A stretch of 44,972 bases of DNA from a virus. The translations under genes and the position numbers were made by a program. The stretch spans positions 1 to 44,972 of the IMG/VR virus record IMGVR_UViG_3300035099_000176. One strand, written 5' to 3'. Of the stretch, positions 5,326 through 44,972 are shown in pieces (position 1 is the stretch's first letter; every line of letters begins with the position of its first letter). The notes beneath the pieces were generated by a model. It did no database searches. It was not told the origin of the DNA and worked only from the letters and a program-made list of their open reading frames with translations.

Positions 5326-6154
5326 AGTCCCTCAGAAGAGGGCGAAGAGCATTTTCTTGTACGGACGGCCGGGAGATGGCAAGACCAGCATGATTCGCAC
5401 CATCACTGGTCTTCAAGATGGTTCTCCATGCTGGATTCTAGACCTCGACTGCAAGGTGCTGGAGATGGAGAATCTCCGGCCTTATATCGAGGATGAGAGG
5501 TTAATTGTAACTGAAATCCCATCTGAGCTAGTAGAAGATAGCCTCGCCGCGCGGGCTGCTGGCTCGGACTCGTACAAGTCAAAGCGTGGAGGCGAGTTCT
5601 TCACGATGAGCTCGCCAAAGGTGCAGCCGAGAGGCTACGTGAAGCTGTGTGAGCTGATTGACAGCGCGGATAGCTTTATCAAGGAGCATGGTGTAAAGAG
5701 CATCGCTGTTGACTGCTTCACGACTGCGGTGGAGCATCTATACAGGCTAGTGAGTTTCATCACGAAAAAAGGGACCATTGAGGAGAGCGCCTGGAACATG
5801 GTGCTTATGAACGAGGAGGAGTTGCTGACAGCGATAAAGTTACTGCCGGTCAACTACGTAATTGTGACAGCTCACAGTAAGCTCGTGTTCAATGAGGAGT
5901 CGGGTATGCTAAGTCAGATTGTCCCTGCAGTTCAAGGGGACATGAAGAACAAGATCATCAAGTTCTTCACTGAGGCATATCTTTTCGACAACATCGTAGG
6001 AGCAAGAGGAATCGAGTATCGCGTTCGGACTCGGTCCTCAGTGCTAGCTCAGGCTCGCACTTCGCGCTTCTTGAACGAGTTCGAGCCTGCTGATTTCAGG
6101 GTGATCTTCGACAAGGACTACAGAATGGAGTACTACGCCAAAACCTCAAAATGA
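5300..6154 (+). CDS. Sak4-like RecA-fold recombinase ATPase
   Basis: 284 aa, AGGAG upstream. Walker A is GRPGDGKTS (22-30); a Walker B-like strand KSIAVDCF lies near 132-139, and YVIVTAHS near 185-192 resembles the sensor region. Size, P-loop and neighbourhood fit phage Sak4-type single-strand annealing proteins, which work with an SSB to pair DNA ends. The SSB-like gene and a zinc-ribbon gene follow directly, the usual Sak4-SSB order. It could alternatively be the AAA partner of the VWA protein three genes upstream. Confidence 0.8.
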   Translation: MSESEVQSEVPQKRAKSIFLYGRPGDGKTSMIRTITGLQDGSPCWILDLDCKVLEMENLRPYIEDERLIVTEIPSELVEDSLAARAAGSDSYKSKRGGEFFTMSSPKVQPRGYVKLCELIDSADSFIKEHGVKSIAVDCFTTAVEHLYRLVSFITKKGTIEESAWNMVLMNEEELLTAIKLLPVNYVIVTAHSKLVFNEESGMLSQIVPAVQGDMKNKIIKFFTEAYLFDNIVGARGIEYRVRTRSSVLAQARTSRFLNEFEPADFRVIFDKDYRMEYYAKTSK

Positions 6155-6303: not shown

Positions 6304-6825
6304 ATGGGAAGAGTTCGTATCATCATGGACGACATTCCGGAAGGAAGGGAGCCCCTTCCAGAAGATCAAGTTTACACCGTCGAGTTCGCCTCAGTTGAGG
6401 AGAGAGTCGGAGTGAAGGGACCATATCTCAATTGCCAGTTGAAGGTGGTGGACGATCCTCTGCACGAAGGGTACACCCTGTTTGAGATTCTTCCGCTTCC
6501 CGATCCGAAGGTGATCGATGCTGCTTTGGCTCTTCCAGCTTCGATGGAACAGAAGCGGAAGGAGATGCTCGCCCAGGAGCACAAGAAGTGCTGGAGAACG
6601 AAATCTGCGTTTCTAGCAACTGGAGCGCAGTATGACAGCGATGGATTCGACACTAACGATCTCCTCGGAGCGAGAGCTCCCGTCCGTGTGAAAACCGAGG
6701 AGAGATTGGCGAAGGGTCCTGACGGAAGCTACTCAATTCCTACGGGAGTGTATCAGTCTCGAGTGGCTCGGTATCTTCCGAAAGGGGCAGTTCCGCCGAC
6801 AAGAAGCGATGACATCACATTCTAA
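6304..6825 (+). CDS. Probable phage single-stranded DNA-binding protein
   Basis: 173 aa from ATG 6304, with AGGGGAG upstream. The N-terminal two-thirds is predicted beta-rich (VYTVEFASVEE, GPYLNCQLKVVDDP) like the OB-fold or DUF669-type SSB proteins that pair with Sak4 recombinases, and the C-terminus ends in DDITF, the acidic-aromatic tip common in SSBs. Assignment rests on layout and context; sequence motifs alone are weak. A structured RNA leader follows. Confidence 0.6.
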   Translation: MGRVRIIMDDIPEGREPLPEDQVYTVEFASVEERVGVKGPYLNCQLKVVDDPLHEGYTLFEILPLPDPKVIDAALALPASMEQKRKEMLAQEHKKCWRTKSAFLATGAQYDSDGFDTNDLLGARAPVRVKTEERLAKGPDGSYSIPTGVYQSRVARYLPKGAVPPTRSDDITF

Positions 6826-6832
6826 CTAGATC

Positions 6833-6954
6833 GCCCGCCCTGGGGGACGATGCTAGCTCGGCCCTCGCCTTGGTCGAGGCGCAGTAATTAGCGACCATCC
6901 CTGGGGAAATTCCGGCGAGAATCCGGCAGGGCGGGCAATACATTTGGAGAGCTA
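6833..6954 (+). ncRNA. Candidate structured leader RNA 1
   Basis: A perfect 10-bp stem (GCCCGCCCTG at 6833-6842 with CAGGGCGGGC at 6927-6936) closes a region of about 84 bases. Inside are CCTCG/CGAGG and CCGG/CCGG hairpins and a possible GGGA...TCCC helix. TAGCTC at 6854-6859 is complementary to GAGCTA at 6949-6954, which overlaps the ribosome-binding site of the next gene. This is the pattern of a cis-regulatory RNA. It matches no riboswitch class I can name with confidence. Confidence 0.5.
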
Positions 6955-6956
6955 AC

Positions 6957-7169
6957 ATGGATGCTCAGAAAGTGTTAGATGTTGTTTTAAGGGAAATGAC
7001 CGCCATCGGCGCAGGATGGCGTGCTGACTGGAAGGGATTCGATGGGCGCACGCTCAGGCATCAACTGAACAATCTAGCGAATTGGGCGAGGTTTGCATTA
7101 GGCTCATCAGATGATGATCTTGACTGTACTGAGGGGACAGAGTTTTTGGAAGATCAGAGGGATTGGTAA
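6957..7169 (+). CDS. Hypothetical 70-aa protein
   Basis: ATG follows GGAG, which may be masked by leader RNA 1. The product is helical then acidic, with four Trp, ending DQRDW. No family recognised. Its stop overlaps the start of a 16-bp sequence that recurs at 7607. Confidence 0.65.
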   Translation: MDAQKVLDVVLREMTAIGAGWRADWKGFDGRTLRHQLNNLANWARFALGSSDDDLDCTEGTEFLEDQRDW

Positions 7170-7183
7170 GCGGGCGTGTGGTG
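7168..7183. repeat. 16-bp repeat AAGCGGGCGTGTGGTG, copy 1
   Basis: Exact match to 7607-7622. Both copies lie immediately after a small gene's stop codon. Copy 2 pairs with a downstream CCACACGC; copy 1 has no such partner nearby. A shared RNA-processing or regulatory site is possible. Confidence 0.7.
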
Positions 7184-7214
7184 CAACCGGCCATCCGAAA
7201 GGAAGAGGTGAGTG

Positions 7215-7463
7215 ATGATCCCTACTTCACCAGTGGTTCCCGGGCGAGAACACGAAGAAATTGTTTACGCTAGGAATCAACCCCAATATCTTCCACTTCC
7301 CGCCCTCCCAATAGAAGACGGGATTGTAACCCGATGGAAATTGTCTTGGGGGGAGCGCCTACGTATTCTATGGACAGGTGATCTCTACCTGTCGGTCCTG
7401 ACCTTCGGGCAGAGGTTGCAGCCATTGAAGCCTACGACGACACGACCAACTCTTGGGGCGTGA
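7215..7463 (+). CDS. Conserved small phage protein
   Basis: 82 aa from ATG 7215 (GTG 7212 possible), after GAGGTG. The C-terminal half, with TRWKLSWGERLRILW and then LYLSVLTFGQ...LQP, matches the pattern of a small protein I recall as common in unrelated tailed phages (R/T-W-x-L-S/T-W-x-E-R-L ... TFGQPLQP). That family has no known function. The pattern supports a real gene despite the short length. Confidence 0.75.
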   Translation: MIPTSPVVPGREHEEIVYARNQPQYLPLPALPIEDGIVTRWKLSWGERLRILWTGDLYLSVLTFGQRLQPLKPTTTRPTLGA

Positions 7464-7477
7464 GGAAGGATGTTGTC

Positions 7478-7600
7478 ATGGGCCATCTTGGGATAGTCGA
7501 GGCGTTGGGAGGTGAATGGTACTTCAATCTGTACGCTTCGCTTCATCTTCTTGTTCTGATAATTATAGCAATTGCGCTGTGTGTGATAGCAGTGAAGTAG
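7478..7600 (+). CDS. Small single-span membrane protein
   Basis: 40 aa. ATG 7478 follows AGGAAGGA. After a short polar N-terminus comes one strong membrane helix (LHLLVLIIIAIALCVIAV, residues 22-39) that ends at the C-terminus. Likely inserted in the inner membrane. One of three tiny membrane proteins in the early operon (with 3609 and 8367). Function unknown. Confidence 0.55.
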   Translation: MGHLGIVEALGGEWYFNLYASLHLLVLIIIAIALCVIAVK

Positions 7601-7606
7601 CAACTC

Positions 7607-7622
7607 AAGCGGGCGTGTGGTG
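7607..7622. repeat. 16-bp repeat, copy 2
   Basis: Exact copy of 7168-7183, again right after a stop codon (7598-7600). Bases 7613-7622 form the left arm of the first stem of leader RNA 2. Confidence 0.7.
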
Positions 7623-7776
7623 TTGTGGTCACATTCAGGCAGGAGACGCCACACGCACGGAGGCGGCTGGCACGGGCTGACGAAACCCTTGCAGGAGACC
7701 GACACTGGCATCGCGGTCGGTGCTGGGGATGCCTTGAGCCACGGCCAGCCGCTTTTCCGCCCTTATGTAAAAAGGG
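7613..7776 (+). ncRNA. Candidate structured leader RNA 2 with alternative hairpins
   Basis: First stem: 7613-7622 with 7647-7656, 10 pairs including one G-U. Second domain: GCGGCTGG (7663-7670) with CCAGCCGC (7745-7752). Within it ACCGAC (7698-7703) pairs with GTCGGT (7716-7721), while GGCATC (7707-7712) can pair with GATGCC (7728-7733). These two hairpins interleave and cannot form together as nested helices. A last hairpin, CCCTT/AAGGG (7760-7764/7772-7776), covers part of the next gene's AAGGGAG site. No known RNA class recognised. Confidence 0.5.
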
Positions 7777-7784
7777 AGCCACAC

Positions 7785-7949
7785 ATGAAAGAAAAGGTCA
7801 GTGAACAGTTGGACGCCTTGGTATTTGCTGTTACTCAGATTATTTTTGGTCCTGAAGCGACTCAGTTTGTGTACCAACACCTGGTGAGATTGGCACTGGA
7901 GGATTACGGAATCACGGAAGCTTTCCTCAGAGAGAGCAAAGGAAACTAA
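7785..7949 (+). CDS. Hypothetical 54-aa protein
   Basis: Start ATG 7785, with AAGGGAG upstream partly in a hairpin. The product is one long helical segment (KVSEQLDALVFAVTQIIFG, then VYQHLVRLALEDYG). A frame upstream stays open to 7617 but crosses leader RNA 2 and has no ribosome-binding site, so the short form is preferred. Confidence 0.6.
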   Translation: MKEKVSEQLDALVFAVTQIIFGPEATQFVYQHLVRLALEDYGITEAFLRESKGN

Positions 7950-7953
7950 AAGG

Positions 7954-8388
7954 ATGGATCAGGACAAGATAGACAAAATCGTAGCAGCGACGACCTGGAT
8001 GTACGAGTGCGCTCGCCTGGAAGCCATTGCCAGCGGACGGCCAATCGTTCCGGAGCCGTGGGAGCATCGGGACGAGGCATTCCGGGCGCAGATGGTCGCC
8101 CACACGCGGGAGATGGCCCAGAGGCTGAAAGATGGCCGCGACTTGCCGAGCCCGGAGGAAGCTCACGATTCTTGGGTGCGGGCTTACGAGGCTATGGGCT
8201 GGCGCTACGGGCCGGTTCGGGACGCCAGCGCCAAGACCCATCCGGACATGGTGCCATACGCGGAGCTTCCGCAGGCTGAGCGGGACAAGGACGAGATATA
8301 CCTGGCCCTGCTCCGCCTGGCCCTACGTTGGATTGTTCAATGCCGAGCCAAGCAAGGGAGTCACCAATGCCACACTGGAGTGACTTGA
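7954..8388 (+). CDS. RyR-domain protein
   Basis: 144 aa. Residues about 71-115 carry the RyR-domain signature: HDSWVRAYEAMGWRYGP, then KTHPDMVPYAELP and a DKD turn. RyR domains occur in ryanodine receptors and in many bacterial and phage proteins, where their ligand is unclear. The N-terminal 65 residues are helical and charged. The last 21 bases overlap the next gene. The domain call is good; the role here is unknown. Confidence 0.8.
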   Translation: MDQDKIDKIVAATTWMYECARLEAIASGRPIVPEPWEHRDEAFRAQMVAHTREMAQRLKDGRDLPSPEEAHDSWVRAYEAMGWRYGPVRDASAKTHPDMVPYAELPQAERDKDEIYLALLRLALRWIVQCRAKQGSHQCHTGVT

Positions 8389-8513
8389 TCTTTATCTTCG
8401 TCAGCACAATTTGGATTCTGGCTACTGTAGGGCTTCTAATCACCATCCTGTTTGACTTCGCATCCTGGATATTCGACAAGATTTTCCGCCAGGACGCCAG
8501 GCGAACGCGTTGA
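8367..8513 (+). CDS. Small membrane protein
   Basis: 48 aa from ATG 8367 (AAGGGAG upstream), overlapping the RyR gene end by 22 bases. A long hydrophobic stretch (about 6-32, LIFIFVSTIWILATVGLLI onward) spans the membrane, followed by an amphipathic, basic C-terminus. Possibly a partner of the RyR protein because of the overlap; function unknown. Confidence 0.6.
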   Translation: MPHWSDLIFIFVSTIWILATVGLLITILFDFASWIFDKIFRQDARRTR

Positions 8514-8525
8514 ACCTAGGCGGAG

Positions 8526-8554
8526 TGGCTGTCGGCACTAAAGGTCGGCAGCCA
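8526..8554 (+). promoter_or_regulatory. Strong intergenic hairpin
   Basis: TGGCTGTCG (8526-8534) pairs with CGGCAGCCA (8546-8554): nine pairs with one G-U and an 11-base loop. There is no T-tract after it, so it is not a standard terminator. It could stabilise or process the mRNA. Confidence 0.55.
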
Positions 8555-8673
8555 TGCACTTATGAGTGATATTATCTTCATGTGGAGTCGCAATGATCCT
8601 GGACCTGAGTGGGTACCGCTGATATGGCGGTGTGGGCTAGATTACAGGAACACTTTGTATAGGAGGAGAGAAG

Positions 8674-8871
8674 ATGGGAGTCGTAACCAGATTAGAGTGC
8701 GACGAGTGCAAGTCCCAGAGCAATGGATCAATAGAAAACTGGTGGTCTCTTCTGGACGACTCAAGTTGCCTGATCCTGAAGAAATACGAAGTCAATCCGC
8801 TCATAAGCGGCAGGATTGTGTGCGGAATGGAATGCGTGCTGAAGGCGGTGTCGAAATGGATGAGCAAGTAG
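8674..8871 (+). CDS. Small Cys-rich (zinc-knuckle-like) protein
   Basis: 65 aa after a strong AGGAGGAG site. LECDECKSQ near residue 9 gives C-x2-C, and IVCGMEC near residue 50 gives C-x3-C, a likely zinc site. A longer frame at 8562-9002 in another reading frame overlaps it but lacks a ribosome-binding site at its own start. Function unknown. Confidence 0.65.
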   Translation: MGVVTRLECDECKSQSNGSIENWWSLLDDSSCLILKKYEVNPLISGRIVCGMECVLKAVSKWMSK

Positions 8872-9002
8872 GAAATCACGAGGATCACCGAGAGCCGGTG
8901 CCAGGATGCATGTTCTGCGACATCATTCTCGACTCGATTGACGAGTTAGAGCAAGCCAAACGAGAGAAGCCACTCGACGCGGCCGAGTCGGGTGGTGGCT
9001 GA
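8856..9002 (+). CDS. Possible small acidic CxxC protein
   Basis: 48 aa from ATG 8856, overlapping the previous gene by 16 bases. Contains PGCMFCDIILDSIDELEQA, a C-x2-C followed by a helix. The ribosome-binding site is weak (GGCGG). Plausible but small; the same frame is open further upstream. Confidence 0.4.
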   Translation: MDEQVGNHEDHREPVPGCMFCDIILDSIDELEQAKREKPLDAAESGGG

Positions 9003-9030
9003 GCCGTGCGCCTAGCGCCGGCACCAGCAG

Positions 9031-9234
9031 CGCAGGGTCGGGCAGATTGTCTCCTCCTCGAACGGCAGCCCTTCGAGCTAGGAGGCTTCTCGGAATGCTT
9101 CACTGCGCCGACGGCCACGAGCTGTAGGGCAGATTTTCCCAAGAAAGCTGATCGCGGGCACTTCTTCAGGGTGAAGGTTCGCGGTTTCGATCTGCCCGCC
9201 CTGACCCTGCGTATCAAACCGTAGAGAGGAGGGA
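9031..9234 (+). ncRNA. Candidate structured leader RNA 3 upstream of the methyltransferase
   Basis: CGCAGGGTC (9031-9039) pairs with GACCCTGCG (9203-9211), and GGGCAGAT (9040-9047) with ATCTGCCC (9190-9197): 17 perfect pairs with one 5-base bulge, enclosing about 142 bases. Inside are CCTCC/GGAGG plus TCGAA/TTCGA (9053-9085) and CGCG/CGCG plus CTTC/GAAG (9153-9183). CCTCCTC at 9053-9059 is also perfectly complementary to GAGGAGG at 9226-9232, the ribosome-binding site of the next gene. A regulatory switch or stable RNA is likely; no known class recognised. Confidence 0.6.
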
Positions 9235-9237
9235 GTG

Positions 9238-10560
9238 ATGAAGCTGGAGATTTCTGAGATAGTCGTTTCGGCAGATCGGCAGAGAAAGGAAATTGGTAAC
9301 TTCGAAAATCTTAAGGAGTCCATGAGAAAGTATGGGCTCATTCATCCGATTGTCGTTGACGAGAATAAGGTGCTGATCTCCGGACTTCGCCGCTTAGCCT
9401 CAGCGAAAGCTCTCGGCTGGATCACAATCGAGTGCAAAACTAAGGCCGATCTAAATGAGTTCGAGAGGGAAGAACTCGAACTTGAGGAGAATATCGCTCG
9501 CCTAGACCTCTCCTGGAAGGAGAAGGTCTTAGCCAAGGAGCGCCTCCATGAGCTTAAGCTGAAGATTTACGGTCAGTCAGGCCCTGGGAGGTCCGCTGAT
9601 CCAGATGGCTGGAATATCAAAAAGACCGCCGCAGCACTTGGCGAGTCTATAGGCACGGTTTCTGAGGACATTCAACTTGCGAAACTAATAAAGGCAGTTC
9701 CTTCGATTGGCGAGTTGCCGAGTAAACAGCTAGCAAAAACGAGGGGAAAGAAGATTATCGAGATGCTCATCTTGAAAGAAATTGCGAAAAGGAGCAGCAG
9801 CGATGCGACAACTTCATCCGTTCAATTGTTGAACGAACGGTGTGAGGACTTTCTCCCTACCGTTGCGGATGAGTCAGTCGACTTAATTGTGACTGATCCG
9901 CCATTCGGTATTGACATAGATCTTATGGATTGGGCGAGGTCGAATGTAGGAGAAACTGGAAAATCAGTTACGTACGAAGATGGCACATCGAAAAGAGAGA
10001 TGTTCGGCGTTTGGGCTGGTCCAGTTGTAGTGCCAGCGGTAGAGTTCGCCATCCCTCACTTCGCCAGGATTCTCAAGCCCGGCGCTCACCTTTACCTTTT
10101 CTGCGCTGCCGACTCGTTCCATCCTTACGCGGAGATGCTTACGAAGGTTGGAATGTGCGTGAGACCGAAACCGCTTGTCTGGGTCAAGGATCACGCTGCG
10201 CCAACCTCGTATGAGTGGAAGTACGCCTCAAGATACGAGTGCATCATTTTCGCACATAAAGGGAAAGCCGGAAGAGTGCTAGCTAAGCCGGCAAGTGATG
10301 TGCTGGAGTACGCAACTCCGCACCAGAGGATTCATCCTGTAGAGCGACCGACTGACCTGATAAAGTTTCTGATCGAGCAATCATCAAGCGAGGGAGACCT
10401 TGTGCTAGATGTGTTCGCGGGCAGTTGCGTAGTGGCGAGAGCCGCGATGCTATTGAAGCGGAGAGTGATATGTGTCGAATCTGATGAGGATATGCTTGAG
10501 AAGGCGAAAGCTCTCATTGCACTGGAGGCTGGTGATGCTGGTAAAGGGGATCGGGAATAA
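9238..10560 (+). CDS. ParB-like nuclease domain fused to DNA methyltransferase
   Basis: 440 aa from ATG 9238 (GTG 9235 also in frame). Residues about 1-100 are a ParB/Sulfiredoxin-type domain (PIVVDENKVLISGLRRLAS), residues 110-180 a helix-turn-helix linker, and about 195-420 an amino-methyltransferase with TDPPFG near 220 (catalytic motif IV) followed later by LDVFAGS near 391-397 (SAM-binding motif I), the beta-class order. It methylates adenine N6 or cytosine N4. Such fusions are known in phages and may protect phage DNA from restriction. Its end overlaps the polymerase start by 26 bases. Confidence 0.85.
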   Translation: MKLEISEIVVSADRQRKEIGNFENLKESMRKYGLIHPIVVDENKVLISGLRRLASAKALGWITIECKTKADLNEFEREELELEENIARLDLSWKEKVLAKERLHELKLKIYGQSGPGRSADPDGWNIKKTAAALGESIGTVSEDIQLAKLIKAVPSIGELPSKQLAKTRGKKIIEMLILKEIAKRSSSDATTSSVQLLNERCEDFLPTVADESVDLIVTDPPFGIDIDLMDWARSNVGETGKSVTYEDGTSKREMFGVWAGPVVVPAVEFAIPHFARILKPGAHLYLFCAADSFHPYAEMLTKVGMCVRPKPLVWVKDHAAPTSYEWKYASRYECIIFAHKGKAGRVLAKPASDVLEYATPHQRIHPVERPTDLIKFLIEQSSSEGDLVLDVFAGSCVVARAAMLLKRRVICVESDEDMLEKAKALIALEAGDAGKGDRE

Positions 10561-13060
10561 GAACGCCAAGATTATGCTAGTATCAACTGCTCCTGGTCCT
10601 CACGAGGAGAGAGCTGGAAGGCCATTCGCTGGGCCAGGTGGTGCTGAGTTAATGAAGCTTCTAAGCCGAGCGGGCGTGAATATCAAGGACTGCTTCTTCG
10701 ATAACGTGATGCAGACTTCAGTGAAGAAAGAGCCGACCGAAGATGAACTGAGGCTTTGGTACTCGGACTTGAGGGCCAGAATTGAGGAGGTAAATCCCAA
10801 TGTTGTTGTACCGCTAGGCAAGCACGCTCTCCTTGCCATAGCAGGAAGGTATGGCATAGATAAATGGAGAGGCTCTATCATTGAATCCACGCTCTGCCCA
10901 GGAAGAAAAGTCATTCCAACATTCGACCCCGCCTTTCTGCTATATGAGGGAGGCGGATACATTATGAGAGAGCCGATGACTTGGGATCTGCAGCGAGTGA
11001 ACGAGGAGTCAAGAAGCTCAGAGATTCGAGTTTCTGAGTGGCATCTTGATATAAGACCAAGCATCGAAACGGTAGAGAAAGCATTTGATCGTCTAGAGAA
11101 GTCAGATCGAATCGTCGTGGACATAGAGGGTCTCGGAAATATCTTATGCTGCGGTCTTGGAGATTGCAGCGACTGGGCAATCTCCATTCCATTTTCGTGC
11201 TCCGATGGGTCGAAGTATTGGAATAGTGAGCAAGAAGCGTGGATATTCAAGAGAATCGCGGAAATTGCCGAGTCTAGCAAGGAGAAGATAGGCCATAATT
11301 TGGCGTACGACTGGGCTAATCTCAGGCTGTACGGAGTAGAGCTGAGAAGTTGCAGATGGGATACAATGGAGATGCACACTTGCGTCTGGCCTGAGCTTCC
11401 TCACGCTCTGGCTTTTCTCTGCTCAGTTTACACGAAACAGCCGTACTATAAAGATGAGGGGAAAACTTGGTCTAAGGGAGTTGCTGAAGATGCATTCTGG
11501 CGATACAACGCGACCGACGTAGTAGTCACTGGTCAGTCGTTTCTCAAGCTGCACGACGAGATGAGCGAGTTGGGCGTCCACACTTTTTACAATCGGCACA
11601 TGACTAATATGTTTCAGATTAAGGTTAGAATGGAGTTGGATGGAATCAACATCAACAGCAAACTTCAAGACATGTATAAGATTGAAACTAAAGAGGAGAT
11701 AGAACGCCTAGAAAAAGAGTTTGAATCGAAAGTTGGTAGAAGTATCAATGTAAGATCTCCCAAGCAAATGAAAGATTTTATCGAGAGGGATCTTGGCTTG
11801 TCAATTCCGTATAATAGAAAGACGAGGAAGCCAAGTTTGAACGAGGACGCACTTCAGAAGCTCCTAATCAAGCACAGACCAGCGCTGCTAGATTTGATCT
11901 TGACACTGAGGGGAAAGAAGGTTTTGCTGAGCTCTTACATTGACCTTAAGAAGAGTTCCGATGGAAAAGTGCATTGCCACTACGGATATACGGAGTCGCT
12001 GAGATTCAAGAGCAGCAAGTCGCTGGTACTTGGCGGTGGGCTTAATTTACAGACTCCGCCGCGGTCAACTCGCTACATGTATATTCCAGATGATCCTGCA
12101 TTCTTGTTCGGATCTTTTGATCTATCTCAGGCTGAAGATCGGTGGGTGGCATACGCCGCTCCAGTATCTAAGAAGGTCGAGCTCTATAAGAAAGGGATGA
12201 AGGTTCATACTTATTTCGCCAGCATCATATCCGAGGCATTTACTGGAAAGCACCTTGAGTATCACGAGGTGCCGAAGGATGATAGTCCAGGAGCGCTATA
12301 CTTCACTGCTAAGCGAACCAACCTTGGCCAGAATTATGGCTTAGGTCTGGAGAAGTTCGCCCTTATTGTTCACCAACCCGTGAACATTGCGAGAGTTCTG
12401 ACTGAGATTTTCCATAGGACATTTCCTGAGATTAGACAAGTGTGGTGGGAAGATGTAAAAAAGCAGTTGGCTAAGGATCGAACGTTGACTAATCCAGATG
12501 GCTCTAAGAGAATTTTTCTGGAGCGGTGGGGAGATGAGCTTTTCAGAGCCGCGTACGCTCACGGGCCACAGGAGGGAATATGCTATCACACAAATCAGAT
12601 AATACAAGCACTTTTCTACTCGAACGTGTGCGCACTGGAATCGAAGTTGACCTACGAAGGTTATCTGGAGTGCATTGGCTTGGACGAACAATATTTGCTA
12701 GATCAGTACCACGCAGTAAGAGAGTCTCAACTGAAAATAAAATTGCAAGTTCACGATCAGTGCGTTTATCAGGCGATTCCGGAGAGCATTCCCGCATTAG
12801 CAAGAATCGCAGATGCTGCTGCAAATCGCCCGATAATCGGTCTAAAGGGGGGACCTTTCGTGATTCCGGCTGAGCATTCAATCGGCGCTTCATGGGGAGA
12901 TGCTCCGCAGGATTCTCAGGAAGGTGCTGCCATTAGGGAGAAAATCTTGAAGATATGCGGTCACGAAGCCTGGCTTCACCCCTTTAGGCCAAACGATGAG
13001 AAAGCTGAAGAACTGGCTTCAAAGCTATCTAGATTATACAGAGAATCACGAATCTCCTGA
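10535..13060 (+). CDS. DNA polymerase I with N-terminal uracil-DNA-glycosylase-like domain
   Basis: 841 aa from ATG 10535 (GGAGG upstream; the frame is open to 10472). Residues about 10-140 resemble family 4/5 UDG: STAPGPHEE, GRPFAGPGG and FDPAFLL stand where GEAPG, GRPFVGRAG and HPAYLL are usual, so key Glu and His are changed. Residues 190-340 are a 3'-5' exonuclease with D196/E198, NLAYD (D259) and YNATD (Y324, D328). Polymerase motif A is SFDLSQAEDR (D529), the O-helix is AKRTNLGQNYG (K593, L597, Y601), and motif C is VHDQ. The Phe762-equivalent is Leu, the Arg754-equivalent is Tyr, and HDE is HDQ. SPO1 carries a comparable fusion. Confidence 0.9.
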   Translation: MLVKGIGNKNAKIMLVSTAPGPHEERAGRPFAGPGGAELMKLLSRAGVNIKDCFFDNVMQTSVKKEPTEDELRLWYSDLRARIEEVNPNVVVPLGKHALLAIAGRYGIDKWRGSIIESTLCPGRKVIPTFDPAFLLYEGGGYIMREPMTWDLQRVNEESRSSEIRVSEWHLDIRPSIETVEKAFDRLEKSDRIVVDIEGLGNILCCGLGDCSDWAISIPFSCSDGSKYWNSEQEAWIFKRIAEIAESSKEKIGHNLAYDWANLRLYGVELRSCRWDTMEMHTCVWPELPHALAFLCSVYTKQPYYKDEGKTWSKGVAEDAFWRYNATDVVVTGQSFLKLHDEMSELGVHTFYNRHMTNMFQIKVRMELDGININSKLQDMYKIETKEEIERLEKEFESKVGRSINVRSPKQMKDFIERDLGLSIPYNRKTRKPSLNEDALQKLLIKHRPALLDLILTLRGKKVLLSSYIDLKKSSDGKVHCHYGYTESLRFKSSKSLVLGGGLNLQTPPRSTRYMYIPDDPAFLFGSFDLSQAEDRWVAYAAPVSKKVELYKKGMKVHTYFASIISEAFTGKHLEYHEVPKDDSPGALYFTAKRTNLGQNYGLGLEKFALIVHQPVNIARVLTEIFHRTFPEIRQVWWEDVKKQLAKDRTLTNPDGSKRIFLERWGDELFRAAYAHGPQEGICYHTNQIIQALFYSNVCALESKLTYEGYLECIGLDEQYLLDQYHAVRESQLKIKLQVHDQCVYQAIPESIPALARIADAAANRPIIGLKGGPFVIPAEHSIGASWGDAPQDSQEGAAIREKILKICGHEAWLHPFRPNDEKAEELASKLSRLYRESRIS

Positions 13061-44082: not shown

Positions 44083-44097
44083 GCAAGCGCAAAGCAT

Positions 44098-44132
44098 GGG
44101 ACCGGGAGAGCCACTTCTCCCGGTCCCTTTTT
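44098..44132 (+). terminator. Strong intrinsic terminator
   Basis: GGGACCGGGAGA (44098-44109) pairs perfectly with TCTCCCGGTCCC (44116-44127), 6-base loop, followed by TTTTT. It ends the 103-aa transcript and also separates it from the convergent regulator gene. Confidence 0.93.
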
Positions 44133-44155
44133 GATGCTCGGCAAAGCGCTGCAAC

Positions 44156-44736: not shown

Positions 44737-44972
44737 CGATATACCCTTAGTATATTGTCCCTGGACCACCCATAACATTCATAACTTTCCTTGTAACCCA
44801 TTGATTTTAAAGGGTTTTTGGCGATTTTTGACCTCCATAATCGCCCATACTGTTATTGATAACCTTGTAACCCATTGATTTTATTGGATTTGTGACTGCT
44901 CGATTTCCGGACACTCCTGCTCGACTTTCAAGCATTCCTGTCCGATTTTCAAGCACGCCTGCTCGATTTCCA
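44737..44972. repeat. Direct terminal repeat, right copy
   Basis: Second copy of the 236-base terminal sequence, ending inside the fourth iteron. Joining position 44736 to position 1 makes a continuous control region running from the ribbon-helix-helix gene promoter to the first early gene at 348. Confidence 0.95.

Follow-up and report, generated by a model that had tools for sequence, protein, structure and literature searches.

A stably folded, probably non-coding intercistronic element in front of a phage methyltransferase gene

We analysed the region upstream of a DNA methyltransferase gene in IMGVR_UViG_3300035099_000176, a viral record 44,972 bases long with a GC content of 49%; the whole record is referred to here as the window. 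Positions 1-236 and 44737-44972 repeat each other with one mismatch, a 236-nt terminal redundancy indicating that the contig probably represents a complete phage genome. It encodes an SU10-type portal, a large terminase, a family A polymerase with a uracil-DNA-glycosylase domain, and a primase. The gene at 9238-10560 (plus strand, as for all parts of the element described below) encodes a 440-aa fusion of ParB_N and an N6/N4 DNA methyltransferase, based on Pfam and PHROG matches. The protein matches phrog_67 (E 3e-47); its methyltransferase part matches PF01555 (E 8e-23), and the ParB_N part matches PF02195 at E 2e-4, which falls under the curated cut-off of that family. Its true start is most likely the ATG at 9238, five bases past the ribosome-binding site GAGGAGG (9226-9232). 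The next gene, at 10472-13060, encodes DNA polymerase A fused to a uracil-DNA-glycosylase-superfamily domain, and the alignment with relatives covers the uracil-DNA-glycosylase part too. Upstream, a GC-rich accessory gene (7954-8388, with 66% GC at 8000-8199) carries a RyR domain (PF02026, E 2e-10), an unusual domain in a phage early gene. A Pfam scan of the neighbouring genes returned the methyltransferase, the polymerase, the RyR-domain protein and small unknowns; a reverse transcriptase, the expected neighbour of a retron non-coding RNA, is absent among them. At the far end of the genome, a strong hairpin at 44083-44155 (GGGACCGGGAGAGCCACTTCTCCCGGTCCC, then TTTTT; z -3.8) lies between convergent genes and is probably a terminator.

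Between the stop codon of a small upstream gene (9000-9002) and the ATG at 9238 lies a gap of 235 nt (9003-9237) with a GC content of 63%, against 49% for the genome. The genes on both sides share one strand. A gene model using codon usage leaves the gap empty, and it is probably non-coding.

A sequence-only reading of this DNA had proposed that a two-part, 17-bp stem closes the leader. Both parts are real: the 9-bp part joins 9031-9039 to 9203-9211 (CGCAGGGTC/GACCCTGCG), and the 8-bp part joins 9040-9047 to 9190-9197 (GGGCAGAT/ATCTGCCC), with a 5-nt bulge at 9198-9202 between them. Together they enclose, as claimed, 142 nt with several inner hairpins. The complementarity is therefore present, but it is not the preferred fold, since computed pairing makes the full 17-bp stem a minor state. 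The outer part is firm, its 5' arm (9030-9039) pairing with its 3' arm (9203-9212) at a probability of 0.8-1.0, and its 9 bp are common to both states. The inner part is contested: GGGCAGAT occurs at 9040-9047 and again at 9127-9134, and ATCTGCCC at 9190-9197 is the partner common to both copies. In the minimum free energy (MFE) state, the inner copy takes this partner (probability 0.72-0.96), 9040-9043 of the outer copy pairs with 9198-9201, and the domain is closed by 9030-9043/9198-9212, a stem of 14 bp with one bulged base. In the minor state, the outer copy pairs with 9190-9197 (probability 0.04-0.22), and the 17-bp stem grows to 20 bp once G-U pairs and flanking pairs are added. This state is 2.5 kcal/mol worse than the MFE, so that the copy at 9127 outcompetes the copy at 9040 by about that amount.

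Three hairpins are predicted inside the domain. The largest, at 9049-9086, has about 15 bp, is worth -19.0 kcal/mol alone and brings together CCTCCTC (9053-9059) and AGGAGG (9080-9085). A small hairpin of 5 bp spans 9111-9125, and one of 10+4 bp spans 9150-9186. The first (minus its two outermost pairs) and the last are kept in both states. The three motifs singled out earlier, CCTCCTC, GGAGG (9081-9085) and GAGGAGG, all lie where they had been placed.

We tentatively favour, at somewhat less than an even chance, a structured intercistronic leader that acts in cis, possibly as a T7-like processing or stabilising site; this reading rests on the computed fold and on analogy. The element would sit where small accessory genes meet the early-region block of methyltransferase, DNA polymerase and primase. 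Once transcribed, the closing stem and inner hairpins would fold into a domain that ends 13 nt before the ribosome site, and for this reason the ribosome site lies outside it; in folds ending at 9240 or 9300, GAGGAGG is mostly unpaired. Such a domain could uncouple the translation of the neighbouring genes and offer double-stranded RNA at which the downstream message might be processed or stabilised. We infer that the element is transcribed, that it is processed or stabilises its message, and that it is functional. Some evidence speaks against this reading. In the MFE state the longest near-continuous helix is predicted at 14 bp with a 1-nt bulge, less than two helical turns. Folds that reach further downstream partly pair the ribosome site and start codon with coding sequence. 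In addition, no homologue was found from which covariation could be read, and well-folded gaps are common in phages.

The main rival is that the gap is functionless GC-rich spacer DNA, perhaps arrived with the accessory genes, whose fold would come partly from composition and partly from chance. We regard this as possible, if rather doubtful. The gap is GC-rich like the nearby gene 7954-8388, in keeping with such an origin. However, the fold exceeds what composition gives. The segment 9025-9240 has an MFE of -95.6 kcal/mol (z -2.86), equalled in 0 of 200 shuffles, and the whole gap scores z -3.0 to -3.6 against shuffles. The core at 9028-9214, whose borders were picked from the fold itself, reaches z -4.8 to -5.2, thus about -5 with composition held. 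Random windows of the genome have a mean z of -0.5 (sd 1.1; lowest of 150, -4.0), and by GC-corrected MFE the element takes 7th place among about 1750 windows of 204 nt. The two-part Watson-Crick stem is the longest of its kind in the real window, and 3000 shuffles of the gap yielded none of 17 bp or more, which argues against a spacer. On the other side, such a stem appears somewhere in 15 of 200 locally shuffled whole genomes, so the stem alone, as found by reading an entire genome, is statistically borderline. The sense strand folds better than the antisense strand (-92.1 kcal/mol, z -4.8, versus -83.8 kcal/mol, z -3.8) and with more G-U pairs (9 versus 6), a weak sign pointing to RNA over DNA, and 235 nt would be a costly spacer in an otherwise compact genome. 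In this one genome, the fold is better than chance. Together with the codon score given below, these z values bear out the earlier description of a stably folded, apparently non-coding leader directly 5' of the methyltransferase gene. Two gaps further upstream, 7601-7784 (z -3.7) and 8514-8673 (z -2.9), also fold well; compared with the element, they are not copies of it. A putative coding ORF, 8562-9002, would read through part of the second.

The element is a singleton, as a spacer might be. Within its own genome it is single-copy, and searches of phage and plasmid DNA returned short chance matches only. Exact patterns searched in viral contigs gave one match, in L004, where the flanking sequence is different, and further patterns gave none. 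We gathered relatives by their methyltransferase, polymerase and terminase; across about 1.4 Mb of these, blastn, nhmmer and a single-sequence covariance model found no homologue, the covariance model built from the element alone matching only itself. A search of 4227 Rfam families gave no match at gathering score and, for the element, none even at permissive thresholds. For the nearest phage, L005, whose terminase is 64% identical, the sequence is a 10-kb fragment and stops short of the region. The gene order methyltransferase, polymerase, primase is widespread in phages, and the methyltransferases of phages that share it are 22-40% identical over most of their length. Relatives whose methyltransferase is 34-40% identical usually have 0-20 nt before this gene, mostly no gap, and nothing is therefore conserved at the place of the element; such a variable position again fits a spacer. 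Two relatives (L044 and L006) carry a terminator-like hairpin at the border of the methyltransferase gene, as do L009 and L114, seemingly, by eye. These hairpins suggest that the place before the gene can be a transcription-unit border.

Other intergenic structures were seen among the relatives. An RNA-like element between genes is common to two related phages (L071:3664-3732 and L075:3225-3303); its loop parts are identical (CTGCTGAGAGGCT ... AGCAATCCACCGG), and its 10-bp closing stem shows two compensatory pair changes and 0 broken pairs. It has no Rfam match at gathering score, and with two sequences it is a lead, short of a family. Very stable intergenic folds also occur in the early regions at L126:1962-2205, L031:839-1044 and L055:1307-1542, with z of about -4 to -10 from small shuffles. 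Within a long stem of the L055 fold lies a stretch resembling a tRNA T-arm (GGTTCGATCCC), although ARAGORN calls no tRNA there.

Phage gaps generally fold better than their shuffles, which again favours a spacer. Early gaps of the relatives have a mean z of -1.6 (n=140), and control gaps from T7, PaP2, lambda and two distant methyltransferase phages have a mean z of -2.2 (n=37), the T7 gap at 5823-6006, directly after the RNA polymerase gene, reaching -4.1. A tolerant measure of long closing stems showed no excess over shuffles. The idea that long closing stems in early gaps are a hallmark of this phage group is rejected: control gaps fold as well, and stems are not in excess. A folded gap is the rule in phages, and the element is a strong but not singular example.

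Apart from the cis-acting leader and the spacer, we consider it unlikely that the element gives rise to a stable small RNA some 180 nt long, released by cleavage at the closing stem or transcribed from a promoter of its own. The domain at 9030-9212, which contains several hairpins and is firmly closed by its stem, would suit such a product, yet 6500-10600 holds neither a sigma-70-like promoter nor a plus-strand intrinsic terminator, and no Rfam family and no conserved copy match it. An intrinsic terminator or attenuator was rejected separately, the same interval containing no plus-strand GC-rich hairpin followed by a T-run.

It is also quite unlikely that the element acts at the DNA level, with its repeats as an operator (for example, for autoregulation through the ParB-like domain) or as the remnant of a short mobile element. 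The repeats are GGGCAGAT at 9040 and 9127, inverted at 9190, and GGCAGATCGGCAGA at 9270. Three of the four GGGCAGAT copies in the whole window fall within 160 nt, and the antisense strand also folds well, both of which fit this reading. However, the element is present once in the genome and in none of the phage, plasmid or relative sequences, a target-site duplication was not seen by eye, and the closing stem and hairpins exceed what an operator needs. The single copy here, with none in phages, plasmids or relatives, also speaks against a short mobile element with terminal inverted repeats, which would be expected in several copies.

The two close states could themselves be regulatory. In a two-state leader RNA, the two copies of GGGCAGAT would vie for the one ATCTGCCC, and a protein, a ligand or processing would shift the RNA between the 17-20-bp closed state and the branched state, controlling the methyltransferase-polymerase block. 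We judge this distinctly improbable. A 15-nt direct repeat with 13 of 15 positions identical is modest evidence on whether the two states form a switch or an accident.

More improbable still is the switch suggested by the sequence-only reading, in which CCTCCTC would exchange its hairpin pairing for pairing with the ribosome site and so time translation of the methyltransferase. The bases of CCTCCTC pair within the local hairpin at probabilities of 0.94-1.0, the bulged C9056 excepted, whereas pairing with GAGGAGG has a computed probability of 0.00. The 7-nt complementarity of CCTCCTC and GAGGAGG is perfect, and the isolated duplex is computed at -15.2 kcal/mol, but forcing it on the leader costs about 17 kcal/mol (-99.5 versus -116.6). 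Moreover, the local hairpin forms first, being finished when about 140 nt are still to be transcribed ahead of the ribosome site, and the alternative pairing must either break the closing stem or cross it as a pseudoknot. Neither is the match specific. CCTCCTC is contained in 4.2% of shuffles, 9047-9059 has a better match in the upstream gene at 8674 (9 nt of its ribosome site) than in the methyltransferase gene (7 nt), and the ribosome sites of 9 of the 71 predicted genes match 9047-9059 by at least 7 nt. At the level of computed energies we reject the anti-ribosome-site switch, the alternative pairing being neither of comparable energy nor gene-specific.

Finally, it is scarcely credible that 9006-9224 encodes a 72-aa protein: this ORF is open across the entire element, but its codon score of -0.098 resembles wrong frames (the 2% quantile of in-frame core-gene segments is +0.01), its GTG start has no clear ribosome site, and searches of Pfam and PHROG gave no match and no relative was found.

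If the cis-acting leader is functional, it would add one more structured intercistronic RNA to those of phage early regions, at the junction to the replication genes, and its importance would grow if the two-state pairing turned out to be regulatory. The phage group is widespread and poorly studied, with 568 stretches encoding the polymerase family in one scan. The element is currently a single sequence without comparative support.

The element can be set beside several known systems. Like the large phage RNAs in Rfam, it is large, multibranched and located in a phage intergenic region, although it matches none of their families. With the terminator-like hairpins of L044, L006, L009 and L114 it shares an operon position, where accessory genes give way to the methyltransferase-polymerase-primase block; those hairpins are short, with T-rich tails in L044, L006 and L114, whereas the element has no T-run after its stem. 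As in leaders controlled by an anti-Shine-Dalgarno sequence, a C-rich stretch is the complement of the downstream gene's ribosome site, but here it is locked in its -19.0 kcal/mol hairpin, with the competing state less stable by about 17 kcal/mol. Each RNase III site of T7 is one irregular hairpin some 60 nt long, and a site of this type has a nearly unbroken double helix of around two turns (roughly 20 bp); in the element, the predicted helix has 14 bp with a 1-nt bulge in the MFE state and 20 bp with a 5-nt bulge in the minor state. Five RNase III cuts are made in the T7 early transcript (PMC4858673). Compared with these sites, the element is a 183-nt branched domain with a shorter continuous closing helix, and its cleavage is putative. 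It resembles the T7 early region in placing what would be double-stranded RNA between same-strand genes of a phage early region, and in a fold surplus comparable to that of the T7 gap at 5823-6006.
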